Shown here: positions 8,371-43,264 of the stretch, piece after piece
Numbering within the stretch: the first letter of the stretch is position 1
How the letters are laid out: every line of letters starts with the position of its first letter
Source of the DNA: Haloplanus sp. HW8-1
GTDB lineage: Archaea; Halobacteriota; Halobacteria; Halobacteriales; Haloferacaceae
Length of the DNA: 64,000 nt
Assembly (NCBI RefSeq): GCF_023703795.1
Contig: NZ_CP098518.1
Location: forward strand, 372,001-436,000
Direction of reading: 5' to 3'
Notes under the pieces: model-generated
The model's input: the letters and a program-made list of their open reading frames with translations, nothing else
Database searches by the model: none
What the model was told of the DNA's origin: nothing
Position numbers and translations under genes: made by a program

Positions 8371-9255
8371 TCAGTTCGTGCGATACGTTTCGATCGCTGG
8401 CCGGAATCCGTCCCGAACGGTCGGATAGCGAAGCTCGTACCCGAGTTCGTGTAGCCGGTCGTTGGCACACCGCTTGTTCGCCCGGACGCGGCGACTCACC
8501 TCACCCTCGGCCGCCGCCTCTCGCTCCGCGACCGTCCACTTCTTCGGTGGTGAAACGCCGCACTGCTCGGCCAACCAGTCGGCGAATCTCCACTTCGAGA
8601 CGGGTTCGTCGTCGACCGCCAGCACCACCTCGTCGCGAGCTACGTCCGTCGCCAGCAGGTGGGCGACGGCGCCGGCAGCGTCGTCGCGGTGGATCGAGTT
8701 GAGGTATCCCTCCGTCACCGGCCCCTCGAGATACCGATCCAGCCGGTACCGGTCCGGTCCGTAGAGCCCGCCGAACCTGACGACGGTGCCGTCGATCCCC
8801 CACGCCGCCGTCTCCTCCAGCGCGATCCGCTCGGCCTCCAGTAGGATGCGCTGTCGGTCCGTCGCGGGATCCGGCGACGTCTCCTCGTCGACCCAGTCGC
8901 CATCCTGGTCACCGTACACCCCGGTACTCGACGTGTACACGAGTCGATCCGGCGGCGAGGTCCGCTCACCGAGCGTCTCGGCGACCGTTCGCAGTCCGTC
9001 GACGTACGCGGTGCGCGCGGCGTCGACGCCCCGGCCGCCCGCGCTCGCCGCGTACACCACCCAGTCGGCGTCGGGGAGCGCCGCGAGCGACGACGCGTCG
9101 GTCAGATCGGCACGGGTTGGATCGAAGCCCGCGGCCTCGATGGCGGCCAGCCCCGCGTCGGATCGGCGGACACCAACGACGTCGTGGCCGGCGTCGATCA
9201 ACTGGCGGCCGAGTTCGAGACCGACGTATCCACAGCCGAGAATGGCGACGTGCAT
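8371..9255 (-). CDS. NAD(P)-binding SDR-family epimerase/reductase-like protein
   Basis: The protein has 294 residues. The dinucleotide-binding loop is at the extreme N-terminus (MHVAILGCGYVGLELGRQL), with the strand ADWVVYAASAGG and the SSTGVYG motif typical of atypical extended SDRs (YeeZ-like). The YxxxK catalytic pair is not evident: the region after VYGDQDGDWVDEE shows neither Tyr nor Lys in the expected spacing. It may therefore bind NAD(P) without classical dehydrogenase chemistry. A C-terminal basic segment (SRRVRANKRCANDRLHELGY) is usual in this subgroup. It overlaps nothing; the next upstream gene ends 5 bases before its start, which suggests an operon. Confidence 0.78.
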   Translation of the reverse strand: MHVAILGCGYVGLELGRQLIDAGHDVVGVRRSDAGLAAIEAAGFDPTRADLTDASSLAALPDADWVVYAASAGGRGVDAARTAYVDGLRTVAETLGERTSPPDRLVYTSSTGVYGDQDGDWVDEETSPDPATDRQRILLEAERIALEETAAWGIDGTVVRFGGLYGPDRYRLDRYLEGPVTEGYLNSIHRDDAAGAVAHLLATDVARDEVVLAVDDEPVSKWRFADWLAEQCGVSPPKKWTVAEREAAAEGEVSRRVRANKRCANDRLHELGYELRYPTVRDGFRPAIETYRTN

Positions 9256-9260
9256 GGGTC

Positions 9261-9692
9261 TCAGCGGGCGTTTCGGCCCGCAACGTAGCTCTGGATCGCG
9301 GCGAGTTCGTCGAGAGTCATGCGTGCCCGCCCCTCGATCGCCTGCTGGATCTCCTGTCCCGACAGGCCGATGTCGACGTTCGAGGCGATCGTATCCACGT
9401 CGAGGACTCCCGTCGTCATTCCCATCAGCAGGTAGTCTCGGACCTCCTGAACGATCCCATCGGCGTCCCGACCGTCGAAGTCGACTGCCAGGATGGCCGC
9501 CGCCTCCGAGAGCGTCACAGAGGGTGACTCGCCGCCGGCGAGGGCCGCGACGGTTTCGGTCGGAAGGTTGGCCGTCGTGGCAACCGTCTCGATCCCTCGG
9601 GCGTCGATCACGGCACGGAGTTCGGCCTCGTAGGCGTCGCGAAGCTGTTGGGGGGACAGCGCTTCCGGTTCGTCGACCGCTTCGTGGAGCAT
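9261..9692 (-). CDS. Conserved haloarchaeal protein of unknown function (143 aa)
   Basis: This acidic, largely helical protein begins MLHEAVDEPEALSPQQLRDA. It contains ATTANLPTETVAALAGGE, which looks like a short helix-turn-helix-like segment, and ends with SYVAGRNAR. There are no cysteines, catalytic motifs or membrane spans. I believe it corresponds to a haloarchaeal DUF family (DUF5791), but the number is from memory. It lies 5 bases upstream of the SDR gene and just downstream of the pilus-like operon end at 9725. Function is unknown. Confidence 0.72.
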   Translation of the reverse strand: MLHEAVDEPEALSPQQLRDAYEAELRAVIDARGIETVATTANLPTETVAALAGGESPSVTLSEAAAILAVDFDGRDADGIVQEVRDYLLMGMTTGVLDVDTIASNVDIGLSGQEIQQAIEGRARMTLDELAAIQSYVAGRNAR

Positions 9693-9724: not shown

Positions 9725-12700
9725 TCAGTCCGCGGCGGGACAGGCCCGGGCCGCCCAAGATGTACAGCCCGGTTCCGGCCACGTGCCCGCACGCTCGTCG
9801 GCGTCGCCGTCGACGTCGCCGACGCCGTTTCGATACGGCGGCACCGCCACGGCGACGACCGTCCGGGTCCGGAAGTCGATTCGCTCGTCTCGGCCGAGTC
9901 GCTCCGCCTCCCCGTCGCCGTCGACGTCGAATCGAACGATCGAGCCGTCGCGAACGTACCGGGTCGCACCTCCCGGCGTCGGTGCACCGCGTCCGGTCCG
10001 AACCGTGAACCTGGCGTAGGCGCCTTTCACCTCTACGTTCCAGACGTTCACTGTCGCGTACCAGTATCCCGGGACAGGTGCGACCGGCAACCCAGCGGGG
10101 ACCGCACCGAGCGTGCGGTTCAGGCGGCTGCGCTGGAGTCGCTTCGTGACGGCCGCGTCCGCCCGCTCCAGTGCCCGCGCTCGCACCCGACTCATGGTTT
10201 CGTTCACGAGTGACTGGGAGACGACGGTCTCCGGCGTTCGTAGGGCGTCGGCGATGGCGACGTCGAGACGCACCTCCAGACGACTGACTCGTCGTGGGGT
10301 CGGATCGCCAGTTCGTCGCGCGGCCGCGAGAGCGATCGCCTCGGCGAGCGAGCCGTTGGCGGCGGCGAGCGCCCGCGGTCCGGGACCGTCCCACCGGGCG
10401 GTCCCCGCCGCGACGGCCGCCTCGGCCTCCAGACGCGAGAGCCGCGTCTCGTTCGACACCGCACGATGCGCCCGTTCCCCGACGTCGTCGATGGACCCAG
10501 CGACCGCGTCGCGGAGTTCGCGGCGGGGCTCCCGAACGGATCCGTTCGCAACCGGGCGGGACGCGAGCAGTACCCGGGCGGCGGTCCGGAGCCGAACCGC
10601 CGACGGCCGATCGACGTCGGGCGCCGCGGCCGTCACGGCGTCCGCGGCGTCGCCGTACGGAGCCGCGAACAGGTTGACGTTCGCGGTTGAGAGCGGGTGA
10701 TACGGTCGTGACGGGGGGACGCCACGCGCTCGGTCGTGCCCCACCGAAGCCACCGTGAGGTACGCCGGCGAGCCGTCAGGAACGGGACGTACCGGCCCCC
10801 CGGGCGGCGTCCCAGCGAGTCGCTCGCGCCGGGTGGGGATCGGAGCTCTCCGCGCCGTCAGGATCCGGTGGAGCGATCGCGGTGAATCGACACCGGCGCG
10901 GCCGAGCGCCTCGTCGAACGCCTCGCGGGTTCGCTCGTGGGTGGCCGCCCGGCGATTCAGCCGACGGAGCGTCGCGTCGACGAGCGCCGCTCGCGCAGCG
11001 ACGCGGGCCCGGTCCGCGGCACCCCGGTATCCCTCCGGCGGGTCGATCAGCGCGCCGCGTCGCTCGCGCAGACTGGCTGCCAGTCGCGCCGGTGGGTTGG
11101 CCGTGTACGTCGCGATCCGTCCCGCCCGAACGCCGACAGACCGATTCGACAGACTGGACCGGAGCTTCGACAGGTCGCGGTACGTCCACGATCGGAGATC
11201 CGCGGGTCGATCGCCGTAAACCGCCAGTTCACGGGTGCCGAGACTCCCGTTGGCGACGGCCACTGCCACCCCTTCACGGCCCCCTTGACGATCGAGGAGT
11301 TTCGACCTCGCCTTGCCGGGCACGTCGGCGAGGTTCGGACCGTCGATCGGGCCTCCCCGTTCGAACAGGGGGCTCGCCGGTCGGTCGGGCGCCGTTCCGT
11401 TCGGGGCGTACGTCCCGACCAGCGTCACGCCGACGCGATACCGATCGGTCCACTCGGCGGTCGTGGTTCGCGTGTCGTTCCCACGTTCCCAGGTCCACTT
11501 GACGCGGTGTTCGAGGACGACGTTCCTCGAGAAGGCCGCGAATCGGCGTTCGCTCGCCGCAGCCGTGGGCGGCGAAGCGACGCCCGCCGACGCCTCGCCG
11601 TCGGTCTCGACGCGGGTCTCGGCGAGGTCCCACTCCGGCCCCGGCGGGTCGGGATCGGGTCGCGGTTCGTGGTACGTCCGGCGGCTCCGCGTCCGGAGCT
11701 TCGATTCCACCCGATAGGCGGCCCGAAGCACGTCCGCGAGCGATCGGTTCGTCCGGGTCGCCCCCGTTCGAAGGCCGGTCAGGGACCGGCCGGCGAGCGG
11801 TCCTACGTCGACGTCGAGCCGACGGGTCGGCGAGGGACCGGATGTCCCCCGTCGAGTCGGCAACGGGTGTTTGTCGCCGGTAGATACCCGGGGGTTTGGC
11901 CGCGGAAGAACGCGATCAGCCCACGCCGAATCGACGGACGTCGCCGCCGTCAACTCTCGGACTCCGAGTTCGCGGGTCGCGCGTCGCATCGCCGTCCGCC
12001 CGGCCGGGTCGCTCCGTCCGAACACCGCTCGCTGCGTCTCGAGGAGGGCTCCGTTGGTCGCCGTCTCGACGTGGCGAGTCGCGACGACGTTGGTGACGGG
12101 GACACCGCCGTACTGTGCGTAACCACGCGCCCACGCGATGGGGTAGAGCCGGGCGGTCAACCGTCGACCCAGTCCCGACCCCTCCAGCGGTCCTCGGTTC
12201 AGCCGCGTCTCGAATGTCATCGCCCGGTCGTGGAGGGAGAGGACGGGTGTCGCCACGGTCACCGTCCGGATTCGGTGCTTGCGATCGACGACGCGCTCCC
12301 CGTTGCGGACGGTGATCGTGCGCTTTCGTACCGTCACTCGGAGTGCCGTCCCGTTCTCGACGCCAGCTACCCGAATCCGGTCCATCGCCCGTCGGAGTTC
12401 GGCCGGCGTCGTCGCCGCGGGGAGGGACGCGACGGCGCTCACGTCCCCGCGCCGGTGTCGTGTCGCCCGCAGTCGCTCGCGGAGCGTCCGGTAGATCCGA
12501 AGGCGAAGGGCGTCTCGAAACGGCTGCTCCTCGCTCAACAGTCGACCGTACGCCGTCCCGGCCGGCGCCGTCACCGGTTCGGCCGCGGCCGCGCGTGCCG
12601 CCTCGCCGACGGCGGACCGCAGGACGGCCGTCGTCTCGGCCGACGTCCGCTCCATCGCCACCTCGGCTCCCGTCTCGAGTCGACTCGGTCCTTGGGTGGT

Positions 12701-12802
12701 CACCGTCGCGGCGTACGTCGAGGCACCGACCAGCAGGAGGACGCCGATCAGGGCGAAGGGGACGCGTCCGCGCCGGTCGTCGGCGAGTCGGATTCGGGTC
12801 AC
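9725..12802 (-). CDS. Very large single-pass protein of a type IV pilus-like operon (1025 aa)
   Basis: The protein begins with a short charged stretch and a helix (VPFALIGVLLLVGASTYAATV), so it is anchored by an N-terminal segment with nearly all of its 1025 residues outside the membrane. The ectodomain is rich in Arg and Ala and includes potential N-glycosylation sequons (NGT, NGS, NRS). No enzyme motif is visible. GTG 12802 overlaps the stop of the upstream gene (GTGA), so it is translationally coupled as the last gene of the operon. Pilin-like topology suggests an adhesin or tip component of the pilus-like machine, but that is inference. I recall it as a haloarchaeal DUF family linked to PilB/PilC loci. 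Confidence 0.72.
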   Translation of the reverse strand: MTRIRLADDRRGRVPFALIGVLLLVGASTYAATVTTQGPSRLETGAEVAMERTSAETTAVLRSAVGEAARAAAAEPVTAPAGTAYGRLLSEEQPFRDALRLRIYRTLRERLRATRHRRGDVSAVASLPAATTPAELRRAMDRIRVAGVENGTALRVTVRKRTITVRNGERVVDRKHRIRTVTVATPVLSLHDRAMTFETRLNRGPLEGSGLGRRLTARLYPIAWARGYAQYGGVPVTNVVATRHVETATNGALLETQRAVFGRSDPAGRTAMRRATRELGVRELTAATSVDSAWADRVLPRPNPRVSTGDKHPLPTRRGTSGPSPTRRLDVDVGPLAGRSLTGLRTGATRTNRSLADVLRAAYRVESKLRTRSRRTYHEPRPDPDPPGPEWDLAETRVETDGEASAGVASPPTAAASERRFAAFSRNVVLEHRVKWTWERGNDTRTTTAEWTDRYRVGVTLVGTYAPNGTAPDRPASPLFERGGPIDGPNLADVPGKARSKLLDRQGGREGVAVAVANGSLGTRELAVYGDRPADLRSWTYRDLSKLRSSLSNRSVGVRAGRIATYTANPPARLAASLRERRGALIDPPEGYRGAADRARVAARAALVDATLRRLNRRAATHERTREAFDEALGRAGVDSPRSLHRILTARRAPIPTRRERLAGTPPGGPVRPVPDGSPAYLTVASVGHDRARGVPPSRPYHPLSTANVNLFAAPYGDAADAVTAAAPDVDRPSAVRLRTAARVLLASRPVANGSVREPRRELRDAVAGSIDDVGERAHRAVSNETRLSRLEAEAAVAAGTARWDGPGPRALAAANGSLAEAIALAAARRTGDPTPRRVSRLEVRLDVAIADALRTPETVVSQSLVNETMSRVRARALERADAAVTKRLQRSRLNRTLGAVPAGLPVAPVPGYWYATVNVWNVEVKGAYARFTVRTGRGAPTPGGATRYVRDGSIVRFDVDGDGEAERLGRDERIDFRTRTVVAVAVPPYRNGVGDVDGDADERAGTWPEPGCTSWAARACPAAD

Positions 12803-13650
12803 GGCCACGTCCTCACGACGATCCGGACCCGCCCGAGTCGGACGCGTTCGACGACCCGCCGCGTCGAGGCGTTCGTGCCGTGCAGATCGGCGGCGACGCG
12901 ATCCGAGAGCGCGGTCGCTAGACGGTCGTTGGCAGCGGCGACGCCACCGTGGGCTAGCGTCGCGCGACCGTCGACGCCGACCCGGCGCTCGGCGAGACGG
13001 CACCGGTGACGGACCAACGCCGCGTCCCGTTCCCCGGCAGCGATACGCGTCCGAGTCGGCGGAAACAGTCCGTCGACGATGCCGTCCGCGACGACGTCGG
13101 CGATCCCCTCGATCCCCTCACTCTCGGCGGCGTCCCGGACCGCCGCCCGCCTAGACGGGATTCCGCTCGGCGCCGCGATCCTCGCGGCGTGGACCGGCAC
13201 GTCCGGAGGCGGTCGGCCGCCGACGACGATCCGCCCCTCGACCGACGCTCCAGGATACGGCCGCCAGACCGCGGTGATCCGGGTGTGGTTCGCCCGGATC
13301 GTCGCCCCGACGGCACGGATCACCGCCCGTGAGAGCCCGTCCCGTGTGTGTGACAGGCGCCGGCCGTCGATCTCGAGTCGCCCGACGGCCGCCCGAGCCA
13401 ACAGTTCCGCCAGCGTACCGTGGGCGGTCCGATCGAACACGGCGGTCGACTCCGGATCACCGGCGGTCGCGGGTTCGGGAGCGGGCGTGAGCGTGTAGTT
13501 GACGGTCGCCGTCGTCGTCGCCAGCGTCGACGCCACGTCGGCGGCGCGGCCCTCGCCTGTCGGCTCCCGTGGCGTCGCCGTCGTCACCGTCACCACTGCG
13601 GCGCTGATCAACAGGAGGCAGATCACGCCATCGAGGACGGTGCTCGTCAC
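12799..13650 (-). CDS. Single-pass pilus-operon protein of unknown function (283 aa)
   Basis: The start is GTG 13650 (MTSTVLDGVICLLLISAAVV), overlapping the stop of the upstream gene by GTGA. One N-terminal helix (about residues 6-24) is followed by an extracytoplasmic domain rich in Ala and Arg with NYT, NHT and NAS sequons. It has the same overall architecture as its three neighbours: short N-tail, one helix, long outer domain. No catalytic motif is visible. Its place between the PilC gene and the 1025-residue gene suggests a minor pilin-like or assembly role. The function is unknown. Confidence 0.7.
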   Translation of the reverse strand: MTSTVLDGVICLLLISAAVVTVTTATPREPTGEGRAADVASTLATTTATVNYTLTPAPEPATAGDPESTAVFDRTAHGTLAELLARAAVGRLEIDGRRLSHTRDGLSRAVIRAVGATIRANHTRITAVWRPYPGASVEGRIVVGGRPPPDVPVHAARIAAPSGIPSRRAAVRDAAESEGIEGIADVVADGIVDGLFPPTRTRIAAGERDAALVRHRCRLAERRVGVDGRATLAHGGVAAANDRLATALSDRVAADLHGTNASTRRVVERVRLGRVRIVVRTWP

Positions 13651-14039
13651 GACCACACCTCCACCCGGACGCGACCGGGGCGGATCCTCCCGGGCCCGAG
13701 GCGGACGCTCATCGCCCGACTCGCCGCGTCGGTCGCCGTATCTCGAGGTGGGGTTACCCCGGCGTGCCACCGACGCCCCGCCGCGGCGACGGTGACGTTC
13801 AGGCGGTACCCCGAGGGCCCGACACGCCGGGCACGGTGCGTTCGAGACGGGTGGGCCACGCCGCCGGTGCCGAGCGTCTCGGCGACCCGTTCGAGAGTCG
13901 GCTCCGCTAGGGCACGCTCGTCCGCTCCGCCCGCACCACCGAGAGCGGCCGCGTACGCCGATATCGCGCCCGTCACTGCCAGGAGGACCACGATCGCGGC
14001 GGTCGGTTCGACCTGTCCCCTACGCGACGAGCGTGACAT
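13647..14039 (-). CDS. Pilin-like small protein of the pilus operon (130 aa)
   Basis: The N-terminus MSRSSRRGQVEPTAAIVVLL has a positively charged tail, a GQxEP-type junction and then a hydrophobic stretch. It resembles the class III signal peptide and H-domain of archaeal pilins, in which prepilin peptidase cuts before the Q. The remaining 100 residues form a small, basic domain (GRIRPGRVRVEVW end). The ATG at 14039 lies inside the preceding gene (20-base overlap, 14020-14039) and the stop overlaps the next GTG. Likely a minor pilin or pseudopilin; no direct evidence. Confidence 0.7.
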   Translation of the reverse strand: MSRSSRRGQVEPTAAIVVLLAVTGAISAYAAALGGAGGADERALAEPTLERVAETLGTGGVAHPSRTHRARRVGPSGYRLNVTVAAAGRRWHAGVTPPRDTATDAASRAMSVRLGPGRIRPGRVRVEVWS

Positions 14040-14487
14040 CGCACCCCTCCCAAACGACGTGTCGGACGAGCAGCGGGCCGTCGACCGACTGCCAGCGCGC
14101 GGAACGGTCGCGCGCCGCCCCCGCGGCGGCACAGAGTCCCACAGCGGAGTCGAACCGTGACGACGGCGGTGCACCACGGAGCACGGCGAGCAACGCTTGA
14201 TTCCCGTCTGCCGGCGTCACCGGTCCGAACGCGAACGTCGCGTGCGTGGTGCCGGCGTCGTTCCGAAGACCGAGTCGGTTCGGTTCGACCCGTAGCTCCC
14301 GCGCGTCGAGTGGGTGTTCGGCGGTCAGCGACGACGTCGACGCGGCTGCCCGGTCGACCGTGTCGGCGACGTCGGCCGCGGCCGGCGGAGGGGTGGTCGG
14401 CAACGCCGTCCCGACGCCGAGAAGCACGACACTCGCGAGCGACAGACCGAGCCACGTATACCAGGCGTCGACAGGAACGTCGAACAT
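14020..14487 (-). CDS. Single-pass pilus-operon protein (155 aa)
   Basis: The protein begins MFDVPVDAWYTWLGLSLASV, with a membrane helix at about residues 10-30, then a Pro/Ala linker and a soluble domain with two cysteines (GLCAAAG and WEGCDVTLV). The same-strand PilC gene ends 32 bases upstream. The ATG at 14487 was chosen because the first hydrophobic segment starts right after it. Function is unknown; position and topology place it with the other accessory subunits of this PilB/PilC locus. Confidence 0.7.
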   Translation of the reverse strand: MFDVPVDAWYTWLGLSLASVVLLGVGTALPTTPPPAAADVADTVDRAAASTSSLTAEHPLDARELRVEPNRLGLRNDAGTTHATFAFGPVTPADGNQALLAVLRGAPPSSRFDSAVGLCAAAGAARDRSARWQSVDGPLLVRHVVWEGCDVTLVA

Positions 14488-14519
14488 GCGAAGCCGTGGC
14501 CCCGTCTCCGTATTTAAAT

Positions 14520-16253
14520 TCACAGGAACAGACCGGCGCCGACGTACGCCGCGAAGTACGCGAGGGTCGCGAGACACAGTGCGGCGCCGACGCGATATCC
14601 GACGAGCGTTCGATCGAGCCCGCGTGTCAGTCCGCTCGAGAGAACGGTCAGCACGGCGGCCAGCCACAGGACGTACGCACCGACCGCGATACCGAGGGCG
14701 GCTGTCGGAAGGGCGCTGGCTCCGAACCCGGCACTCGTTCCCGCCCCGGCGTCCGAGACCCGGGCCGACAGCGCGACCGTCGCCCCGCCGACCAGGGGGC
14801 CGAAGACGGCCGCGGTGTTACTGAGCGTGTCGGTCACCCGCGCCAGTTCCCGTCGGGCGTCGCGCTCGACCCGCCGGAGTTCTTCGAGGTGTTCTGCGGT
14901 CGCCACGAGTGCGCTGCCCGCCGGCCGTCCCTCGGTCGCCGCGAGGCCGAAGAGAGTTGTCACCTCCTCGATCCGACGACTCGGCAACGAGGTCAGCGGT
15001 CCGCCCTCGCCGCGAAACGCTTCGGTCACCGTGTGCCCGAGGCGTCGCTGCCGTGCCACGGCCGCGTCGAGGACTTCTGCGGTCGCGCCGTCGAGTCGCC
15101 CCGCGGCGTCGGCGATGGCCACCTCGACGGCTTCACCGGACGCGACCCGGCGACCGACCAGGTATAGCGCGTCGTGCAGCCCCGACTCGACCGCGAGCAC
15201 ACGCTCGCGGACCTGCCGTGCCGCGTGGTGGTGGCACACGAGCGCCACCCCGATCCCGAGACCGACCGCGGCGATCGGACCCCCCCACGGGGCGACCCAT
15301 CGTCCGACGAGGACGCCGCCAGCGGCCCCGGCAGCGGCACCTCCGACGAGCGCCCCCAGCCGATCGTCGGGCGTCTCGGGGTGATCCGAGTCGATCCGCG
15401 GCGGCGGGAACGCGATCGGTCGGCGAGCGAGAAGCCACGCCCCCACCACGACCACGACGATCGGAAGGACGACATCGTAGAGGACGACGACGGCCGCGAG
15501 CGGGATGCGGGCACCCGTCGCCCGTGCTGCCGGGAGGACGCCGATCAGCGCGAGCGGCAGGAGTATCCCGAAGGCGTACAGCGCGGTGACCGGCCCGCGG
15601 ATCTCGCCCGTGAACGCCGCCAACTCCTCTCGGGCGCCGTCCAGCGCTGCCGAGAGAGCGCGGTCGAGCTGTCGACCCCGCTCGTCGGCCGGTGCCGACG
15701 CCGCGGCCTCAAGGCGGGACACTGCGCGGCCGAGCGCCGGGAAGTCGTCATCCCACTCGTCGGCGAAGGCTTCGAAGCCGCTCCGGGGCGTTCCACTCGC
15801 CCGGCGCACGTGCTCGTCGAGGCTCCGAGCGAGCGTGCCCGTCCCGGTCTGGGCGGCGAACGCGGCCGCGCGTTCGACGGTCGGATCGATACGCAGCCGC
15901 ATGGCACCCCGTCCTACCAGCCCTGCGGCCCCGCCGAGCGCCCGCGTTCGGGACAGGCGCGCCAGCAGTCGAGGTAGCCGGTTCGCGGCGAGGGGAAGCG
16001 CGACGCCCAGAGCCATCCCCGAGGCCGTGACGACGAGCAGCCACCGGGGAGTGATCAGCGCGCCCGCCACCCCGCCGAGGCCAACCGCAGCGACGACGAC
16101 GACCGTCGCGACGACTCGCACCGCGCGTTCGAGCGTCGGGGCGTCGATCGGTACGCCGAGATATGTAAGCGCCCGGTCGAGGGCCGGATCCGCAGCCGTG
16201 GGCCACGGCCAGCGGGGGGCGAGCCACCGGACGAGCACCGCCGGATCGCTCAT
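14520..16253 (-). CDS. PilC/TadC-like type II/IV secretion membrane protein
   Basis: This 577-residue membrane protein carries two copies of the F-domain arrangement (soluble helical half, then membrane helices), as in archaeal PilC/FlaJ. Helix clusters are near residues 50-90, 215-280, 305-350 and 475-575. Soluble segments such as LAVESGLHDALYLVGRRVAS and FGLAATEGRPAGSALV match the T2SSF helical motif. In these machines it is the membrane platform that the ATPase rotates or pushes to assemble pilins. Its ATG (16253) overlaps the ATPase stop codon (ATGA). It shares little residue-level identity by eye with the PilC at 41228. Confidence 0.82.
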   Translation of the reverse strand: MSDPAVLVRWLAPRWPWPTAADPALDRALTYLGVPIDAPTLERAVRVVATVVVVAAVGLGGVAGALITPRWLLVVTASGMALGVALPLAANRLPRLLARLSRTRALGGAAGLVGRGAMRLRIDPTVERAAAFAAQTGTGTLARSLDEHVRRASGTPRSGFEAFADEWDDDFPALGRAVSRLEAAASAPADERGRQLDRALSAALDGAREELAAFTGEIRGPVTALYAFGILLPLALIGVLPAARATGARIPLAAVVVLYDVVLPIVVVVVGAWLLARRPIAFPPPRIDSDHPETPDDRLGALVGGAAAGAAGGVLVGRWVAPWGGPIAAVGLGIGVALVCHHHAARQVRERVLAVESGLHDALYLVGRRVASGEAVEVAIADAAGRLDGATAEVLDAAVARQRRLGHTVTEAFRGEGGPLTSLPSRRIEEVTTLFGLAATEGRPAGSALVATAEHLEELRRVERDARRELARVTDTLSNTAAVFGPLVGGATVALSARVSDAGAGTSAGFGASALPTAALGIAVGAYVLWLAAVLTVLSSGLTRGLDRTLVGYRVGAALCLATLAYFAAYVGAGLFL

Positions 16254-18178
16254 TCGGCCACCCGCTCGCGCCGTGCCGTCTCGACCGCTTCCGGATCGGT
16301 ACGGTCCGTCTCCGCCAGGTCCGCGAGGAGCGCCGACCGTCCGTCCAGTAGATCGAGTACGTCGGCGTAGGACTCGCCCGGCCGGGTGAGCGACGCGACG
16401 AGGCGACTGTTGCCCCGGTCGACGACGCCCGTCGGTTCGGCGCCGTCGTCTCCAGGTTCGAACAGCGACTCGAAGGTGACCGCTCCCTCGACGTCGCGAA
16501 CCTCCTCGATGCTCGACACCCGACGTCGCTGGTCGGCCGAGAGGGTGACGAGAAAATCGGTCGCCGCGAACGACGACGCGGGCACGTCGAGGTCGGTCAC
16601 CACGCGCTCGAACACCGCATCTGCACCGTCGCCGTGGATGGTCCCGAGGACGGCGCTTCCCGACGCGCCGACGTGCATGGCCTCGTAGAGCGTCGCTGCC
16701 TCCTCGCCCCGTACCTCGCCGACGACGAGCGCTCCCTCACCGAGACGGAGGGCGGTTCGGAGCGCCTCCGTCGCGGAGAGCGCTGGTCCGTCCCCGGTCT
16801 CGACGCGGAGCGACTGGACGTCTCGCCCGGCGTCGCGAAGCCTCGCCGCCGGAAGTTCGGGCGTATCCTCGACGACGACGGTTCGGGTCGTCGACGGAAG
16901 TTCCCACAGGAGCGCCGAGAGGAGCGTCGTCTTGCCGGCACCGCGTGGTCCGGCGATCAGTCCCGCGCCGGCACGTTCGACGGCGACCGAACAGAGCGCC
17001 GCCGCGTCCGCCGACAGGGTTCCGTTGGCGACGAGCGCCGGGAGCGTCCACGCGTCCCGATCGTCCGCACGGAAGACGAACCCGTAGCCGTCGCTGGCCG
17101 GGTCGGCGACCCCCGCCACCCTGATCCGGCCGTTTCGAACCGTCGTCGTCGCGTCGAGCGTCGGCGCGGCCCGTGAGAAGGCTCGGCCGCTCTCGCGTCG
17201 AAACCGAGAGGCCAGCGACGCAGCCCCCCGTCGGGTCAGGTGGACGTTCGTCGGCATCCGATCGCCATCGACCGACACGCGAACCGGATTCTCGCCGACC
17301 GGTGCCGTGATCAGCACCTCGGACACCAGCGGATCGGCGAAGAGGTCCTCGAGCATCCCGTGTCCTCGGGTGTGTCTCCGGAGGACGTGCTCTACCGCCG
17401 GCATCGATACGTCCTCGGCGTCCGGCTCCACGGCCCGGACGGCACGGGCGATCCGTCGGTCGTCGTCGGTGCCGGTTCCGATGCTGTCCACCAGGCGGTC
17501 GTGAGCGGCAGCGAGCGTCGCCAGTTCCGCCCCATCCAGTCGCGAGCTGACCGGTTCGAGCAGGTAGTACCCTCCCCCGTTCGTGCGGTACTGGCGGACC
17601 GTCGCGCGCGTTTCGAGGTCGCGCCGTCCTACCAGCGTCGCGTCCGGCGGTGGTCCCTCCGCAAGTCGTGCGTTGGCGACGACGGGTTTCACCGTCGATC
17701 CGAGGGCCTCTCGGTAGCCGCCGACCCGGTTCGCACCCGCGGCCAGTCCCGTGTTCGCGGCCAGCGTCGACACCGGTCCCGCTCGTCCCGTCGCGGAGCG
17801 GGCGGCCCCGAGTGGATCACGGCGCGCCCGCTCTGCGAGCCGTTCGTCGTGGACGGCAACGCGGGTCACGAACCGCCCCGCGGCGACCAGCAACCCGACT
17901 GCACCGTCGTCGTACACCCGTTCGACCCCCTCGCTCGTGACGCGAATCGCATCGACCGACAGATCGGCCAGTGCGTCGATCACCGTCGCCCGACAGCCGG
18001 AACTCGTCGCCAGGTCGCCGTCGCCGGGACAGTCGTCGGCGTCGACGACGAGTGTGACTCCGTCCTCGGGGTCGCTCCCCGGCGGGGATCGACCCGTCGG
18101 CTCACACCTGCAGACCTCCCCGTCTCCCTCCCGCTCGTCGTCGGTCGCGCCGTCCCGCAGCCGGTCCAGTAGGCGCAT
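16250..18178 (-). CDS. PilB-like type II/IV secretion ATPase
   Basis: The protein has 642 residues. The N-terminal 280 residues form a divergent domain with a Cys-containing start (EVCRCEP). The N2-type domain around 300-400 includes LEDLFADPLVSEVLITAP. The RecA-like core has Walker A GPRGAGKTT near 406-414, a conserved acidic box (VVVEDTPELP), Walker B ALVVGEVRGEE near 485 and a His box (GTIHGDGAD). Such hexameric ATPases power pilus assembly from the cytoplasm. It is followed with ATGA overlap by the PilC-like gene, which makes this a PilB/PilC pair, highly divergent from the pair at 38440-43264. Confidence 0.85.
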   Translation of the reverse strand: MRLLDRLRDGATDDEREGDGEVCRCEPTGRSPPGSDPEDGVTLVVDADDCPGDGDLATSSGCRATVIDALADLSVDAIRVTSEGVERVYDDGAVGLLVAAGRFVTRVAVHDERLAERARRDPLGAARSATGRAGPVSTLAANTGLAAGANRVGGYREALGSTVKPVVANARLAEGPPPDATLVGRRDLETRATVRQYRTNGGGYYLLEPVSSRLDGAELATLAAAHDRLVDSIGTGTDDDRRIARAVRAVEPDAEDVSMPAVEHVLRRHTRGHGMLEDLFADPLVSEVLITAPVGENPVRVSVDGDRMPTNVHLTRRGAASLASRFRRESGRAFSRAAPTLDATTTVRNGRIRVAGVADPASDGYGFVFRADDRDAWTLPALVANGTLSADAAALCSVAVERAGAGLIAGPRGAGKTTLLSALLWELPSTTRTVVVEDTPELPAARLRDAGRDVQSLRVETGDGPALSATEALRTALRLGEGALVVGEVRGEEAATLYEAMHVGASGSAVLGTIHGDGADAVFERVVTDLDVPASSFAATDFLVTLSADQRRRVSSIEEVRDVEGAVTFESLFEPGDDGAEPTGVVDRGNSRLVASLTRPGESYADVLDLLDGRSALLADLAETDRTDPEAVETARRERVAE

Positions 18179-18211
18179 GCGACGCCCTGGCCGCCCGATC
18201 GCTCTTGAACC

Positions 18212-18646
18212 TCAGCCCCTCGTGACGACGACGCCGACACCTCGATCGCGCACGAGCGAGAGGACGAGTCGGTGACCGCCCGGACGCTCGACGACGACGG
18301 GGCCCTCGGGTGTCCGGAGATCGATCCCGCGGAGCGTCGTCCAGTGGGGGTGACGGCCGCCGACGCGGTAGCCGATCCGGTCCCGGCGGCCGTCGACTTG
18401 GAGGGTCGCGCTCGCGGCCGCGAGTGATCGGGCCGGGAGACGAAACCGCACGATTCGTCGCGCGCCCGCGACACCCGGCCGGGTCGGGTCCTCGTGGGTG
18501 AGCAGCGACCGCGCGGCACGCTCGACGCGGTGGGTGATGCCGTCGAGCCGTGTCGCGCTGTGTGTCCGTCTCCCCTCGTCGACGCCCGGACCGACCGCGG
18601 CGAACAGGGCGACGGCCAACAGCACCGCGAGCACGACGCGGATCAC
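18212..18646 (-). CDS. Small exported/membrane protein of the pilus operon (144 aa)
   Basis: The start is GTG 18646, overlapping the stop of the coiled-coil gene (GTGA). The first 20 residues (MIRVVLAVLLAVALFAAVGP) are a signal peptide or membrane anchor; the rest is a basic domain rich in Arg and Val strands. No motif is recognisable. It lies 33 bases upstream of the PilB-like ATPase. I recall haloarchaeal DUF families at exactly this place in PilB loci, unverified. Function is unknown, probably an accessory factor of the machine. Confidence 0.7.
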   Translation of the reverse strand: MIRVVLAVLLAVALFAAVGPGVDEGRRTHSATRLDGITHRVERAARSLLTHEDPTRPGVAGARRIVRFRLPARSLAAASATLQVDGRRDRIGYRVGGRHPHWTTLRGIDLRTPEGPVVVERPGGHRLVLSLVRDRGVGVVVTRG

Positions 18647-19371
18647 AGCAGTCGGCGGATCCGTTCGGCCAACGTCGTCGCCGAGTCGTCGGTACGGTCG
18701 GTCGGTTCCGGCTCCGCGTCCAGTTCGTTCCGGGCGGTGTCGGCCGCCGCCGCCGCGAGCGTCGTGGCGTCCGATCCCTCCACCGGGGACGGTCGCTCAT
18801 GCGAGTCGGTCGCCCCGTCTCGGGTCCGCCGGGCACCCCGTCCGTCCGTCGGCGTGGGATCGTGCCCGGCCGCCGAGTGGATGTCGGTCCCCGCGTCCGC
18901 GGCGACGCCGCGGTCGCCGGCATTCGGTGCACCCGATTCGGGATCGACGTGTCGGTCGCCCGTCGGTTCCGATCCGGTCGTCCCGTAGGGCTCGCTCGGA
19001 TTCGGCGTTCCGGGCCTCTCGGTCGTCACGGCCGTCCCAGTCGTTTCGGTCTCCCCGGCTCCCGGTCGGTCGTTCCCCCGCTTCCCGCTACCGTCCCGCA
19101 GTTCGGCTTCGAGGCGTTCGACGCGAGCGACGGCGGCGTTCGCCCGTCGTTCGACCGACTCGTCGACGGCGTCGACGCCGCCGACGAAGCCACGGAGGGC
19201 CTGGACTGTGGCCTCCAGTTCCGACAGCCGGTCGTCGACCTCCTCGGCGGTTCGGTCGAGTTCCGCCAGCCGGGTCTCCATCCGTGCCGCGTCGGGGAGG
19301 CCATCGTCCGCGTGACCGTCGGTGAGCGCGCGTTCGATCGCGTCGACACGTTCTTCGAGGGTGTCGTCCAT
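18643..19371 (-). CDS. Coiled-coil protein at head of pilus operon (242 aa)
   Basis: The first 95 residues form heptad-rich helices (LEERVDAIERAL, LAELDRTAEEVDDRLSELEA, ARVERLEAELRDG), a clear coiled coil. Residues 95-215 are a disordered acidic Thr/Pro/Gly-rich linker. A short amphipathic C-terminal helix (TTLAERIRRLL) ends the protein. There is no membrane segment, so it is cytoplasmic. It is the first gene of the eight-gene minus-strand operon (19371 to 9725) and may organise or regulate the ATPase; that role is inferred. The divergent cetZ starts about 110 bases away. Confidence 0.72.
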   Translation of the reverse strand: MDDTLEERVDAIERALTDGHADDGLPDAARMETRLAELDRTAEEVDDRLSELEATVQALRGFVGGVDAVDESVERRANAAVARVERLEAELRDGSGKRGNDRPGAGETETTGTAVTTERPGTPNPSEPYGTTGSEPTGDRHVDPESGAPNAGDRGVAADAGTDIHSAAGHDPTPTDGRGARRTRDGATDSHERPSPVEGSDATTLAAAAADTARNELDAEPEPTDRTDDSATTLAERIRRLL

Positions 19372-19479
19372 GGCTCGCGGTGGCCGCGGCATCGCTCCTA
19401 AACCCTCGGCCCGGATGGCGGTCTCACGGTCGTACTCGCGTCGGAGAGTTGAAGGGGGCGCATGACACACGTCGGACGT

Positions 19480-20562
19480 ATGAAGTCCGTCCTGATTGGT
19501 GTCGGACAGGCCGGCGGCAAGGTCGTCGACGCCCTGTCCGATTTCGACGCGCGGAACGGTTTCGGTGCAGTCATCGGCACGCTCGCGGTCAACAGCGCCC
19601 GCTCCGACCTGCAGTCCCTCCCCCTCGATACGGTCCTCATCGGCGGGTCACGGGTGAACGGCCACGGGGTCGGCGGCGACAACGAACTCGGCACGCAAGT
19701 GATGCGTGAGGACGCCCAAGAGGTCCTCGGCGCCATCGACGGCCGGGTGACTGCCCGTGCCGAGGCCATCTTCGTCGTCGCGGGTCTCGGCGGCGGCACC
19801 GGGAGCGGCGGCGCTCCATACCTCGTCAAGGAACTCACGCGCGTGTACGACGTTCCCGTCTACGGCCTCGGCATCCTCCCCGGCCGCGACGAGGGATCGC
19901 TGTATCAAGTGAACGCCGGCCGCTCGCTGAAGACGCTGACCAGGGAAGCGGACTCGACCCTGCTCGTCGACAACGACGCCTGGCGCTCGTCCGGCGAGAG
20001 CCTCGAATCCGGCTACGAGGCGATCAACGAGCGCATCGCCCGCCGGGTCGGCCTCCTGTTGGCCGCCGGTGAGGCGGTCGACGGCGTCGCCGAGTCCGTC
20101 GTCGACAGCTCCGAGGTCATCAACACGCTCCGTGACACCGGTGTCGCGACGCTCGGGTACGCCTCCGCGGAGGCGGCCGCCGACGCGAGCGCGAACGTGA
20201 ACGTCGTCACCAGCACCACCCGGCAGGCGATTCGGTCCGGCCTGAGTCTCCCCGACACGTCGAGCGCAGAGCGCGGGCTACTGGTCGTCGCCGGGCGCCC
20301 CGACACCATCTCCCGGAAGGGTGTCGAACGCGCCCGCTCCTGGCTGGAGACGGAACTCGACACCATGGAGGTCCGCGGCGGCGACTTCCCGATCTCGGAC
20401 GGTCGCCTGGCTGCGCTGGTCTTGCTCGGCGGCGTGGCGGACTCCGAGCGCCTCGACGGCTTCCTCGAACGCGCGCGGCAGGCCGCCCGCGAGGAGGAGG
20501 AGAAAGAGGAGAACACCGCCGCTTCGGCGTTCGAGGAAGAGCAGATCGACGGCCTGCTCTGA
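19480..20562 (+). CDS. cetZ: CetZ-family tubulin/FtsZ-like protein
   Basis: The protein has 360 residues from ATG 19480 (MKSVLIGVGQAGGKVVDALS); an in-frame ATG at 19462 would add six residues (MTHVGR). The GTP-binding tubulin signature GLGGGTGSGGAP lies near residue 105, and GQAGGK begins the first nucleotide loop. VAESVVDSSEVINTL and the late VRGGDFPI motif are typical of CetZ. CetZ proteins polymerise with GTP under the haloarchaeal envelope and control cell shape and motility. The variable C-terminal tail ends in EEEQIDGLL. The gene stands alone, divergent from the pilus operon. I cannot assign it to CetZ1, CetZ2 or a minor paralogue. Confidence 0.88.
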   Translation: MKSVLIGVGQAGGKVVDALSDFDARNGFGAVIGTLAVNSARSDLQSLPLDTVLIGGSRVNGHGVGGDNELGTQVMREDAQEVLGAIDGRVTARAEAIFVVAGLGGGTGSGGAPYLVKELTRVYDVPVYGLGILPGRDEGSLYQVNAGRSLKTLTREADSTLLVDNDAWRSSGESLESGYEAINERIARRVGLLLAAGEAVDGVAESVVDSSEVINTLRDTGVATLGYASAEAAADASANVNVVTSTTRQAIRSGLSLPDTSSAERGLLVVAGRPDTISRKGVERARSWLETELDTMEVRGGDFPISDGRLAALVLLGGVADSERLDGFLERARQAAREEEEKEENTAASAFEEEQIDGLL

Positions 20563-20651: not shown

Positions 20652-22004
20652 CTACTTCGAGGTGACCAGGCTGCCGCCGTCGAAGTCGGTGCGGCCGTAG
20701 TCGACGTCCATCAGGTCGAGGATCGTCGGCGCGATGTCGAACAGGTCCGCGTCCGAGATGGACGCCGACGGGTCGTCGACGAACAGCGTCGCGTTATCGA
20801 AGCTGTGCATCCCGTTGCGTGGCCCGACGTCGAACACGTCCTCGTGGCCCTTGAACCCGGACTTGAGGTCGAACCCGTGGTTCGGGATGGCGACGAGATC
20901 CGGCGCGATGTCGTCGTGTTCGCCGCGGAAGGCGTCCTCTTTCTCGACGACGCGCTCACACACGGGGTTCCCGTCGGGTCCTTCGAGCGCTTCCAGCGCC
21001 GCCTTCAGTTCGTCGCGGGTCGCTTCGTACTCTTCTTGGGCCACCGACCCACGCGGCTCCCGGCCTTCGAGGTTGATGTAGAACCGCCCGGGGATGAGCG
21101 AGTAGGCCCGGGACTCCTCCGCGATGTCGGCCAGGTCGTCGTGGTCGTCGTCCTCGAAGGAGAGCCAGCCTTCCTCTTGGAGCCACGCGTTGCAGTGGAC
21201 CTCGTAGTCAAGCGACGTGAAGCCGTGGTCGCTCGCGACGACGAGCGTCACGTCGTCGTCCAGCATCGACCGAATCCGCCCGACGTAGTCGTCGACCTTC
21301 CGGTAGAACTCCATGAACGCCTCCTTGTTCGGGCCGTCGCGTTCGTAGTCCTTGAACAGGAAGTGGTTAACCCGATCGGTCGTCATGAAGACGCCGAAAA
21401 ACAGGTCCCAGTCGTCGCGTTCGAGGTACTGTGAGAAGGCCTCGAACCGGGTGTCGAGGGTGTCGTGAGCGTCCTCGACGAACTCGCTTTTGTCCTCTTT
21501 GTGTCCGAGTTTGGCGTTCACGTCGATGGCGTAGTCGATAGACTGCAGGTAGTCCCGAAGGTCGTCGGGGTGGGCTGCCTTGTCGACGCCGGGCGAGAGA
21601 AAGCCCGACACCATGCGCTGGACGTTCCGCTGTGGTGGGAAGGTCACGGGGACGTTCATCACCGTCGCGGTGCGTTCGGCTTCCTCGAGTCGGTCCCACA
21701 GCCGCGGGGCCTGGACGTCCTGTCCCATCGGGACGTAGGTGTCGTACGATCCGGACTCGCGGTCCTGGAAGCCGTACACCCCCGTCTCCCCGGGATTGAC
21801 GCCGGTCGTGAGCGCCGGCCAACAGGCGCTCGACTCCGGCGGAACGATGCTGTCGATGGCGCCCGCACTCCCCTCGTCGGCGAGCGCTGCGAAGTTCGGG
21901 AACTCCTCGGGATGGTCCTCGAGGAGGCTAAAGGGCACCCCGTCGATGCCGACGAACGCGACGCGCGGGTGATCCTCTCCGCGCAGTCTATCGAACAGAC
22001 CCAT
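20652..22004 (-). CDS. Alkaline phosphatase superfamily phosphodiesterase/phosphatase-like protein
   Basis: The protein has 450 residues. Motifs of the type I phosphodiesterase/nucleotide pyrophosphatase branch are AFVGIDGVPFSLL at the N-terminus (first metal Asp), SACWPALTTGVNPGETGVYG (nucleophile region), VVASDHGF near residue 260 and a late NGMHS. No signal peptide or membrane segment is seen, so it is probably cytoplasmic. Members hydrolyse phosphomonoesters, phosphodiesters or sulfates with two Zn2+; the substrate is unknown. The ATG at 22004 has AATAAGTAT (minus-strand TATA, 22026-22034) 22-30 bases upstream, so it is leaderless. It is convergent with cetZ across the palindrome. Confidence 0.82.
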   Translation of the reverse strand: MGLFDRLRGEDHPRVAFVGIDGVPFSLLEDHPEEFPNFAALADEGSAGAIDSIVPPESSACWPALTTGVNPGETGVYGFQDRESGSYDTYVPMGQDVQAPRLWDRLEEAERTATVMNVPVTFPPQRNVQRMVSGFLSPGVDKAAHPDDLRDYLQSIDYAIDVNAKLGHKEDKSEFVEDAHDTLDTRFEAFSQYLERDDWDLFFGVFMTTDRVNHFLFKDYERDGPNKEAFMEFYRKVDDYVGRIRSMLDDDVTLVVASDHGFTSLDYEVHCNAWLQEEGWLSFEDDDHDDLADIAEESRAYSLIPGRFYINLEGREPRGSVAQEEYEATRDELKAALEALEGPDGNPVCERVVEKEDAFRGEHDDIAPDLVAIPNHGFDLKSGFKGHEDVFDVGPRNGMHSFDNATLFVDDPSASISDADLFDIAPTILDLMDVDYGRTDFDGGSLVTSK

Positions 22005-22212
22005 ACCATCGCATATCCGGGACGCCAATAAGTATCTTCGTTTCCGGCGGGTACGGGCGGTTGCTACGACGGCCGCCGGCTGTTAGGTAACCGTACCGCA
22101 CTGCCCGCTCTCGGGACGTTCCGGTCGGTGTCTCGGCACACTAATCGACCGACAGAGGCGTGTTAACCACACGTACCAAACTCCCTATTACCGTGACGAC
22201 CCTGCTTCCGGT

Positions 22213-41226: not shown

Positions 41227-41227
41227 C

Positions 41228-43264
41228 GTGAGTCTCGACACCGGAACCGGTCTGGATCGGAGCGTCGATAGCCTCGGCGACCTGTTTTACCCACTCTTTC
41301 GGCGGCTGTTCGACGAGGACGGCGACTTCGTCGACGACGTGGAGACGAAACTGGCACAGGCGCGGATGGCGACGACCGTCGAACTCTACCTCTCGCGGGC
41401 GCTCGCTGTCGGCGTCCTCCTCGGACTCGTGCTGTGGGTTCTCGGTACGTTCGTCGGATACAGCCTCTTCGCGCTCGGTGTCCTCTCACCCGAGACGTTC
41501 TCGACGGGGGCGCATATCCCCAACGAAACCGTCGTGTCGTTCATCGAGCGGATCAAGGTCCCCGCGGCCGTCGGTATTCTCGGCCTCGTCACGGGATCGA
41601 TCGGCTTCATCACGGGCTTTGGCACCCTCGTCGCCATCCCCTATTCGCGGGCTTCGGGCCGTGAACGGGAGATCAACATGCTGCTTTCGGACTCCATTTC
41701 GTTCATGTACGCCCTCTCGGTTGGGGGGCTCAACCAACTGGAGATCCTGGAGGCGATGGCCCGTGCCGAGGACACCTACGGCGAGGTGGCCCAGGAGTTC
41801 CAGAGCATCGTCCAGGAGACGAAGTATTTCGGGACCGACTATCGGAACGCCATCCGGGAGCAGGCGGCCGAGACTCCGAGTGACGACCTCTCACAGTTCC
41901 TGACCGATATGCTCTCTATCGTCAATTCCGGCGGGAATATGGAGGCCTTTCTCTCCGACAAGAAGGACAAGCACATGCGCACCGCCAAACAGCAACAGGA
42001 GGTCACGCTCGATACCCTCGAACTGTTCGGCGAGATGTACATGACCCTCTCGCTGTTTCCTCTCCTTCTGATCATCATCCTCGTCATCATGAGCATGCTC
42101 GGCGAGGCCCAGGAGTTCATGCTGTTCGGGACGGTGTACGCGCTCATACCGATCACCGGCGTGATGTTTCTGGTGCTGGTCTCGACGGTGAAACAGGACG
42201 AACCCGGCGACGGCTACCTCCAGCCCGCGGGCAGCGACGACCACGACCCCGTCGCCGACGCCGAACGCGGTGGCCTCCGACATCTCGGCATCGTCGAGGG
42301 GTTCGTCGGTACCTTCGGCATCTTCGACCGAATCAAATCCCGCGAGGGGACCTTCCGAACGAAACAGCTCCTGCGGAACCCGCATCACTTCTTCCGGGAC
42401 CATCCGACATACACGCTCGCGCTGACCGCCCCCGCGGCGCTGGTGTTGCTGGCCTTCGCGGGTGTGAGCGGCGCGGCGCCGACGACGTGGGACGGCATGG
42501 TGGCGGCGCCCGTCTGGGGCACCTTCGTCTGGGTGTACGTCCCGCTGTACGTCCTGTTGATCCCGCTCGGCGTCTTCCACGAGTGGAGCGTCCGGACCCG
42601 TGCGGCGATCACCGGAAAACTCTCCGACAACCTCCGGAAACTGTCGAGTGCGAACGATACTGGACAGACGCTACTGGAGTCGATTCAGACCACCGCGGAG
42701 ACGTCCTCGGGCAAACTCGCCGACGAACTCGACGTCATCTACGCCAAGGTGAACTACGGGATGAGCCTGCGGAACGCGCTGATCGAGTTCAACAACAAGT
42801 ATCACGTCCCACGGCTGGCGCGGACGGTAAAGCTCATCAGCAAGGCCCAGGAGGCCTCCAGTCAGATCACCCAGGTGTTGACGACGGCCGCCCAGGCCAG
42901 CGAAAACCAGGACGACATCGAGCGCGAGCGCCGCTCCCGGACCCGGATGCAGGTGGCGATCATCCTGATGACCTACCTCACCCTGCTCGGCGTGATGGCC
43001 ATCCTCAAGACGCAGTTCCTCGACGTCATGGCGGGGCTGACCGAGCAGGCTTCCGGGAGCGGCGGCGGCGGTGGCTCCTCGCAGTTCGGCGGTGGCATCG
43101 ACACACAGCTCCTGTCGCTGCTCTTTTTCCACGCCGTCACCCTCCAGGCCGTCCTCTCGGGGATCATCAGCGGCTACATCCGGACGGCGAAGCTGATGGC
43201 CGGCATCAAGTTCGTGGTGATCCTGCAAACGATCGCGCTGGCCGTATGGCTGGTGGTTGGATGA
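41228..43264 (+). CDS. PilC-type membrane platform protein of a type IV pilus system
   Basis: The protein has 678 residues starting at GTG 41228. Two T2SSF halves are clear. The first runs from a helix near residue 60 (LALVLW region) through MYALSVGGLNQLEILEAMAR to a triple hydrophobic stretch LSLFPLLLIIILVIMSMLG. The second has AAPVWGTFVWVYVPLYVLLI, then KLSDNLRKLSSANDTGQTLL and a C-terminal membrane segment. PilC anchors the ATPase and assembles pilins. Directly after pilB and overlapping the next gene (ATGA, 43261-43264). Confidence 0.87.
   Translation: MSLDTGTGLDRSVDSLGDLFYPLFRRLFDEDGDFVDDVETKLAQARMATTVELYLSRALAVGVLLGLVLWVLGTFVGYSLFALGVLSPETFSTGAHIPNETVVSFIERIKVPAAVGILGLVTGSIGFITGFGTLVAIPYSRASGREREINMLLSDSISFMYALSVGGLNQLEILEAMARAEDTYGEVAQEFQSIVQETKYFGTDYRNAIREQAAETPSDDLSQFLTDMLSIVNSGGNMEAFLSDKKDKHMRTAKQQQEVTLDTLELFGEMYMTLSLFPLLLIIILVIMSMLGEAQEFMLFGTVYALIPITGVMFLVLVSTVKQDEPGDGYLQPAGSDDHDPVADAERGGLRHLGIVEGFVGTFGIFDRIKSREGTFRTKQLLRNPHHFFRDHPTYTLALTAPAALVLLAFAGVSGAAPTTWDGMVAAPVWGTFVWVYVPLYVLLIPLGVFHEWSVRTRAAITGKLSDNLRKLSSANDTGQTLLESIQTTAETSSGKLADELDVIYAKVNYGMSLRNALIEFNNKYHVPRLARTVKLISKAQEASSQITQVLTTAAQASENQDDIERERRSRTRMQVAIILMTYLTLLGVMAILKTQFLDVMAGLTEQASGSGGGGGSSQFGGGIDTQLLSLLFFHAVTLQAVLSGIISGYIRTAKLMAGIKFVVILQTIALAVWLVVG

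Follow-up and report, generated by a model that had tools for sequence, protein, structure and literature searches.

A type IV pilus locus of the Halobacteria that lies divergent from cetZ2 has been described in print three times, going by the accessible text of the papers concerned, as subclade 4F, as pil-2 and as the pilB2/C2 regulon (PMC4858521, PMC4292770, PMC9856176). Subclade 4F is marked, in the available part of its description, by an assembly ATPase with a variable N-terminal cysteine-rich region, and its major pilin was proposed to be a stand-alone member of the PilA family, arCOG02981 (Makarova, Koonin and Albers 2016, PMC4858521). In adherent cells of Halobacterium salinarum, the pilB2 transcript was reported, in the portion of the study at hand, to be 8.5-fold up, though at a low level (PMC4292770). 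Here we analyze a 64,000-nucleotide stretch of Haloplanus sp. HW8-1 DNA (contig NZ_CP098518.1, positions 372,001 to 436,000; hereafter the window), whose minus strand carries an eight-gene cluster at 9725-19371. This cluster is a locus of the known 4F, pilB2-pilC2 or pil-2 type: its ATPase falls in a separate clade together with methanogen relatives and has N-terminal cysteines, it includes a coiled-coil protein (DUF7310), and a CetZ gene lies in its context. The label 'methanogen' for the group outside the haloarchaea rests on a control match in Methanosarcina acetivorans and on gene content. We propose, with a probability of roughly 0.6, that these genes supply the assembly machinery, together with the minor subunits, for an archaeal type IV pilus of the 4F (pilB2-pilC2) kind.

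Gene order and transcription units

The cluster comprises the following genes, given in the direction of transcription.

19371-18643, minus strand: DUF7310, 242 residues, cytoplasmic coiled-coil protein with zero hydrophobic segments (Pfam PF23991, E 1.2e-24)
18646-18212, minus strand: DUF7311, 144 residues, single-pass, with an N-terminal hydrophobic segment at residues 1-19 (PF23993, E 1.2e-38)
18178-16250, minus strand: PilB, subclade-4F-type assembly ATPase of the T2SSE family, 642 residues, with an N-terminal cysteine region (PF00437, E 1.3e-17)
16253-14520, minus strand: PilC/TadC-like membrane platform, 577 residues, with 9 hydrophobic segments by hydropathy
14487-14020, minus strand: DUF7283, 155 residues, single-pass, with a hydrophobic segment at residues 11-29 (PF23954, E 2.7e-52)
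14039-13647, minus strand: DUF7285, 130 residues, prepilin-like (PF23956, E 6.9e-33)
13650-12799, minus strand: DUF7284, 283 residues, single-pass (PF23955, E 9e-84)
12802-9725, minus strand: DUF7286, 1,025 residues, with a prepilin-like start (PF23957, 1152 bits); candidate tip subunit

Seven of these match a Pfam model above its cut-off and the platform is related to T2SSF through its orthologues, so that all eight genes can be taken as real. When the junctions were re-read from the sequence on the minus strand, five of the seven proved to overlap and two to be gapped, confirming the count in the original prediction of four 4-base overlaps, one of 20 bases and two gaps of about 32 bases. The 4-base overlaps are GTGA at 18646-18643, 13650-13647 and 12802-12799 and ATGA at 16253-16250; the longest overlap joins DUF7283 and DUF7285 (14039-14020), and the gaps measure 33 bases (18211-18179) and 32 bases (14519-14488). 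Overlaps as such are not special to this cluster, since the second pil cluster of the window has them at three successive junctions (44396/44384, 45646/45634 and 46098/46095, in open reading frame (ORF) coordinates).

To place this arrangement among its relatives, genomes were scanned with a DUF7286 alignment and the best 80 of 188 were kept, which yielded 78 loci that represent the closest relatives. Of these, 70 retain the full set of eight genes in unchanged order, and the order of the accessory genes beside PilB and PilC, for which the original prediction had advised a search, is therefore conserved among haloarchaeal loci. The exceptions (L and G numbers are our handles for loci and genomes) are two loci in which DUF7310 and DUF7311 went undetected (L094, L122), three in which the upstream DNA ends early (L098, L102, L110), two with the accessory half only near DUF7286 (L068, L118), and L119, whose PilB-PilC half lies some kilobases off on the opposite strand (in L208). 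The junctions are likewise retained: a 4-base overlap is kept between DUF7285 and DUF7284 in 73/78 loci, DUF7284 and DUF7286 in 64/78, PilB and PilC in 56/74, and DUF7310 and DUF7311 in 43/70, and the DUF7283/DUF7285 overlap measures 20 or 23 bases in at least 49/78. A 4-base overlap is absent before PilB in 62/70 loci and before DUF7283 in 72/75.

Promoter-like signals follow the same division. A/T makes up 91% of positions -30 to -25 before DUF7283 (77 loci), 61% before PilB (47 loci) and 78% before DUF7310 (47), as compared to 17-33% before DUF7311, PilC, DUF7285, DUF7284 and DUF7286; the divergent CetZ gene and the downstream DUF5791 gene have 73% (57) and 65% (72), respectively. These percentages are estimates, as a script picked the start codons and any locus lacking a suitable start was excluded. 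Haloarchaeal promoters are of a leaderless type, which upstream A/T signals of this kind would fit. Before PilB, the window sequence itself carries only a weak signal, and the following element precedes DUF7283.

14511-14518, minus strand: TATA-like box TTTAAATA, 24-31 bases upstream of the DUF7283 start; probable internal promoter

Because both gaps carry TATA-like boxes, a single simple operon is improbable, and the one eight-gene operon of the original prediction is probably too simple. The pattern fits three predicted transcription units, namely DUF7310-DUF7311, PilB-PilC and DUF7283 to DUF7286. The pil-2 genes of H. salinarum were found to be co-transcribed by reverse-transcription PCR, according to the available text, and read-through would give the same result (PMC4292770).

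The surroundings of the cluster hold four further genes.

19462-20562, plus strand: CetZ (CetZ2 type), tubulin-like, divergent and 90 bases from DUF7310 (CetZ_C, E 1.3e-62)
20652-22028: phosphodiesterase, neighbor on the CetZ side
9261-9692, minus strand: DUF5791 protein, directly downstream (PF19104, E 4.5e-47); a usual neighbor, not a pilus part
8371-9255: epimerase, neighbor on the downstream side of the cluster

CetZ is adjacent and divergent in 57/78 loci and DUF5791 present in 73/78. Among solved structures the CetZ protein is nearest to 4b45 (E 4.1e-147, versus 8.9e-96 for 4b46), which we take to be CetZ2 of Haloferax volcanii. It is our guess that DUF5791 is the arCOG04674 of Brown and Duggin. 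DUF7310 matches the description of arCOG07564 in the accessible text of Makarova et al., with which it was compared by description only (PMC4858521). NCBIfam also matches DUF7310 to pneumococcal PspA (E 0.0023), but this match falls far short of the cut-off and was discounted as similarity between coiled coils.

A separate ATPase clade and a divergent platform

The ATPase was placed in a tree of 48 sequences drawn from the window genome and ten other genomes, without crenarchaeal rows. It falls in a 12-row clade with support 100/100, which consists of eight haloarchaeal rows, two of them identical (the window protein and L034, its copy in the genome), and four rows from genomes that belong to the phylum but not to the order. 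Outside this clade lie PilB3 (L031, L134), FlaI (L032) and the second, PilB4-like ATPase of the window (L033), the PilB3 rows having been recognized by PilB3_N plus PilB3_C and FlaI by an NCBIfam equivalog; the tree program flags L187, L185, L182 and the L146/L149 pair as long branches. The original prediction had held that a grouping with the canonical PilB of archaeal adhesion pili would speak against it, and in this tree the window ATPase groups with neither the PilB3 nor the PilB4 type. Indeed, the PilB3_N and PilB3_C models, both of which match L031 and L134, give no match on the window ATPase. An N-terminal CxC...C...C pattern is present in the window and haloarchaeal ATPase rows, the methanogen rows carry more cysteines, and Walker A and other ATPase residues are invariant in nine aligned relatives.

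The platform is likewise divergent. The T2SSF model matches 14 of 19 PilC orthologues, a diverse set chosen from the 78 loci, with a best E of 9.8e-6, as compared to 0.086 for the window copy alone; because these 14 match, PilC can be regarded as a divergent T2SSF protein. The impression, gained by eye, that the ATPase and the platform both differ greatly from the second pair in the window is borne out, as the two PilB proteins share 27% identity over 399 columns and neither profile comparison nor BLASTP found a significant match between the two PilC proteins. That second pil cluster (38440-48329) encodes a 928-residue PilB4-like ATPase, a T2SSF platform, DUF7288, DUF7261 with an fn3 domain, DUF7266 and DUF7289 and, on the opposite strand, a DUF7308/DUF7289 protein. 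Elsewhere in the window genome, G000:C1:3359154-3366826 (L036, L037) holds two fragments of a further T2SSE ATPase, one with an internal stop codon; they probably represent another secretion-type ATPase that has been broken or rearranged.

Pilin-like subunits, a stand-alone pilin and separable modules

The original prediction counted six accessory proteins, which stands, and took four of them as single-pass pilin-like proteins, which does not: by hydropathy a single N-terminal hydrophobic segment is present in five, namely DUF7311, DUF7283, DUF7285, DUF7284 and DUF7286, and DUF7310 has none. Two of the five have starts that resemble the archaeal prepilin leader motif. In DUF7285 most rows read R-[AG]-Q-[VT]-E-P, with R in 92%, A/G in 92% and P in 97% of 79 rows. 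DUF7286 begins R-[GA]-R-[VI]-P-F-A-L in 28/30 loci by pattern, with 94-100% agreement per column over 79 rows. The window genome has a single prepilin peptidase gene, outside the window, where one open frame gives both the only match to PF01478 and the only match to PF06847 (G000:C1:2996418-2997344). In the methanogen-type genome of L205, PilB-PilC has both a gene for a prepilin peptidase and a DUF7311 relative (11094-12097) no more than about 3 kb away.

The cluster lacks a main pilin gene, and a candidate was found through a pilin-like gene beside PilB-PilC in L205, whose weak match to DUF7382 (E 0.0062, under cut-off) led to a search for that family. In a set of 246 genomes of the phylum, 43 of them haloarchaea, DUF7382 is present above cut-off in 43 genomes, 42 of which also have the 4F-type ATPase (matches under cut-off, in 28/71 genomes, were not counted). 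Among the 43 haloarchaea it is found in 33/33 genomes with the ATPase and in 1/10 without, as compared to 43/43 for the general archaeal pilin family Pilin_N, which served as a control. DUF7382 proteins have about 150 residues and most start D-x-R-[AG]-I-E-G-L-P-[VI]-R-L. In three genomes a pilin of this type is a neighbor of the machine (L167, near DUF7310; L205 and L206, near PilC), and the window genome has its DUF7382 gene at G000:C1:1791869-1792063, about 1.4 Mb from the cluster. No evident pilus gene set was seen among the ORFs around DUF7382 in four genomes, judged from first residues only and with the L242 pilin itself missed. Co-occurrence and leader together suggest that DUF7382 is probably the arCOG02981 of Makarova et al. 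and, going by sequence, the likely missing main pilin of the 4F machine, encoded elsewhere in the genome.

The large DUF7286 protein also tracks the ATPase. Each is present in 63 of the 246 genomes, with both in 60 and neither in 180; that is, of 66 genomes with at least one of them, 60 have both, the exceptions being DUF7286 without the ATPase in G143, G203 and G253 and the ATPase without DUF7286 in G193, G256 and G286. In haloarchaea the two lie less than 8 kb apart in 32/33 genomes, whereas outside the haloarchaea, in 27/27, they are separated by more than 19 kb or sit on different contigs. Accessory proteins occurring apart from PilB and PilC, which the original prediction had named as a point against itself, are therefore the rule outside the Halobacteria and not within them. 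Moreover, L158, L160 and L163 have DUF7285, DUF7284 and DUF7286 in order with no PilB found nearby. With DUF7286 unlinked from the ATPase outside the haloarchaea and the three genes kept in order in these loci, the accessory set is a separate module.

The same data bear on whether the locus is decaying, largely unused and retained by chance. Both DUF7286 and the ATPase are absent from 9/43 haloarchaea, and G143, which lacks the ATPase and keeps no more than the final quarter of DUF7286, looks like a case of joint decay. In L148 and L208 (3852-7095) the 4F-type PilB is split between frames, possibly by recent decay, in a genome in which the accessory half of the cluster lies apart, and pilB2 is interrupted in NRC-1, as the consulted portion of PMC4292770 has it. 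All of this would accord with loss of use, but in the window all eight genes are open, their order is kept as described above, the ATPase residues are invariant and the parts are co-retained in the genome even if unlinked, which together make retention by chance very improbable.

The structure models of the larger accessory proteins were compared to solved structures. AlphaFold2 gave a confident model for DUF7284 (predicted local distance difference test (pLDDT) 89.2, predicted template modeling score (pTM) 0.84) and a fairly good one for DUF7286, with a poorly modeled N-terminus (pLDDT 80.7, pTM 0.68). Neither has a Foldseek match at E <= 0.001 among solved structures, and the DUF7286 profile reaches a best E of only 0.59 against their sequences. 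The best VIA-align results, a ribosomal S3-like region (Z 3.9, root-mean-square deviation (rmsd) 4.0, 86 aligned) and a SecB-like sheet (Z 5.0, rmsd 4.2, 94 aligned), are within the range that the tool flags as possible chance and were set aside. These models would make no case for or against a pilin-type head, and we claim no new fold. C-terminal DUF7286 pieces occur in separate short ORFs of L157 (profile positions about 812-1009) and L165, so that this end of the protein may form an independent domain. In two methanogen-type loci, L158 (11379-11987) and L159 (12292-12903; here DUF7286 stands alone), DUF7286 is followed by a gene for a MAST-domain protein of the sarcinarray family, possibly an archaeosortase-anchored partner of DUF7286.

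The original prediction had raised the possibility of a secretion machine rather than a pilus, in which a short pseudopilus would act as a piston and export a protein across the S-layer. The tip set of type II secretion, GspH-I-J-K, has several small pseudopilins and one large one, much like the small pilin-like proteins and single large protein seen here; the cluster itself is without a major pilin, and the MAST-domain protein could be cargo or partner. However, none of the eight genes gave a Pfam match to a secretin, a cargo protein or anything else that marks secretion (the genome itself was not searched for secretins), the stand-alone pilin DUF7382 tracks the machine, and to our knowledge archaea of the haloarchaeal kind have no outer membrane to cross. 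No positive evidence for secretion was found, and we consider it unlikely; the pilus fits better.

Proposed working and comparison with described systems

For the pilus we propose the following working. The prepilin peptidase encoded elsewhere would trim DUF7285, DUF7286 and the stand-alone major pilin DUF7382, and DUF7311, DUF7283, DUF7285, DUF7284 and DUF7286 would form a membrane priming or tip complex on the PilC platform, with the giant DUF7286 as its exposed head. PilB-family ATPases are hexameric, and PilB would use ATP hydrolysis to insert DUF7382 subunits under the tip complex. The resulting surface filament may serve surface-attached life, which the adherence-linked pilB2 expression in H. 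salinarum fits, and the coiled-coil DUF7310 and, where adjacent, CetZ2 might regulate or position the machine. More tentatively, this may be a pilus of three modules that selection rather than linkage keeps together, namely the ATPase-platform pair, the five-protein tip module capped by DUF7286 and the stand-alone DUF7382, with CetZ2 placing it in Halobacteria and the sortase-anchored MAST-domain protein joining the head in methanogens.

Several observations weigh against the pilus. Three of the five single-pass proteins (DUF7311, DUF7283 and DUF7284) have no prepilin leader in their alignment rows, and neither the DUF7284 nor the DUF7286 model resembles a solved pilin or adhesin fold. DUF7382 persists in G143, where the ATPase was not found, and G067 and G076 have no match to its Pfam model, yet G067 has a related pilin beside PilC. 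Because the genomes are related, the counts of joint occurrence, of DUF7286 as of DUF7382 with the ATPase, are not independent events, and Fisher values computed from them are no measure of significance for such events. In H. salinarum, as the accessible text reports, pilB2 transcript is scarce compared to pilB1, and pilB2 of NRC-1 carries an insertion (PMC4292770). In the open-licence literature, so far as its available text goes, no filament, mutant phenotype or deletion was found for the pilB2 locus, and PMC13286277, PMC7749143 and PMC10067837 have no direct treatment of it in the parts consulted.

Another purpose might be DNA uptake or cell contact, as with crenarchaeal Ups pili or bacterial competence pseudopili. 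Haloarchaea exchange DNA by cell contact, and type IV pili serve DNA exchange in other organisms. No gene of the cluster suggests DNA handling, and a study of mating reports, in its accessible text, reduced cetZ2 at most time points and no uniform pattern among pili genes (PMC7749143), so that we hold such a role to be rather improbable. A surface pilus of the 4F kind is preferred. The 4F/pilB2 pilus occurs widely among the Halobacteria, its genes often beside one for a tubulin-family cytoskeletal protein, and a likely main pilin (DUF7382), a probable tip (DUF7286) and separable transcription units would make both its purpose and its positioning by CetZ2 testable in H. volcanii.

Among described systems, the PilB3-PilC3/PilB4 adhesion pilus, represented by the second pair of the window (38440-43264), belongs to the same superfamily and has the same general mechanism but differs in its separate ATPase clade and in its pilin set of DUF7288, DUF7261, DUF7266, DUF7289 and DUF7308. 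With pil-2 of H. salinarum R1, the cluster shares an arCOG01818-type ATPase, a 9-segment platform and co-transcribed prepilin-like genes; according to the consulted part of that study pilC2 has an in-frame stop in R1 and pilB2 is interrupted in NRC-1, whereas both are intact in Haloplanus (Losensky et al. 2015, PMC4292770). With the pilB2/C2 regulon beside cetZ2 it shares the divergent cetZ2, the epimerase and the phosphodiesterase, and no difference was found in the available text (Brown and Duggin 2023, PMC9856176). The PilB2 of H. volcanii was assigned to clade 4C in the accessible part of Legerme and Pohlschroder (PMC6491452), and we prefer 4F because the CetZ context and the cysteine region fit the 4F of Makarova et al. 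No paper naming DUF7286, DUF7285, DUF7283, DUF7311 or DUF7382 was found in the open-licence literature, and DUF7286, a prepilin-type head of 1,000 to 1,400 residues, has no relative that we found among solved structures. The cluster type, the CetZ link, the coiled-coil protein and the dedicated pilin are already in print (PMC4858521, PMC4292770, PMC9856176, PMC6491452, in their available text), and part of what is added here may already stand in the supplementary tables of those papers. From subclade 4F, as far as the accessible text describes it, there is no essential difference (PMC4858521): both have the cysteine-region ATPase, the TadC-like platform, several predicted pilins, the coiled-coil protein, a large predicted surface protein, an FtsZ-family gene in context and a dedicated stand-alone major pilin, for which DUF7382 is the candidate here. 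To this the present analysis adds that the large protein has a prepilin-type leader, that the accessory module is separable and that DUF7382 is a pilin which co-occurs with the machine.

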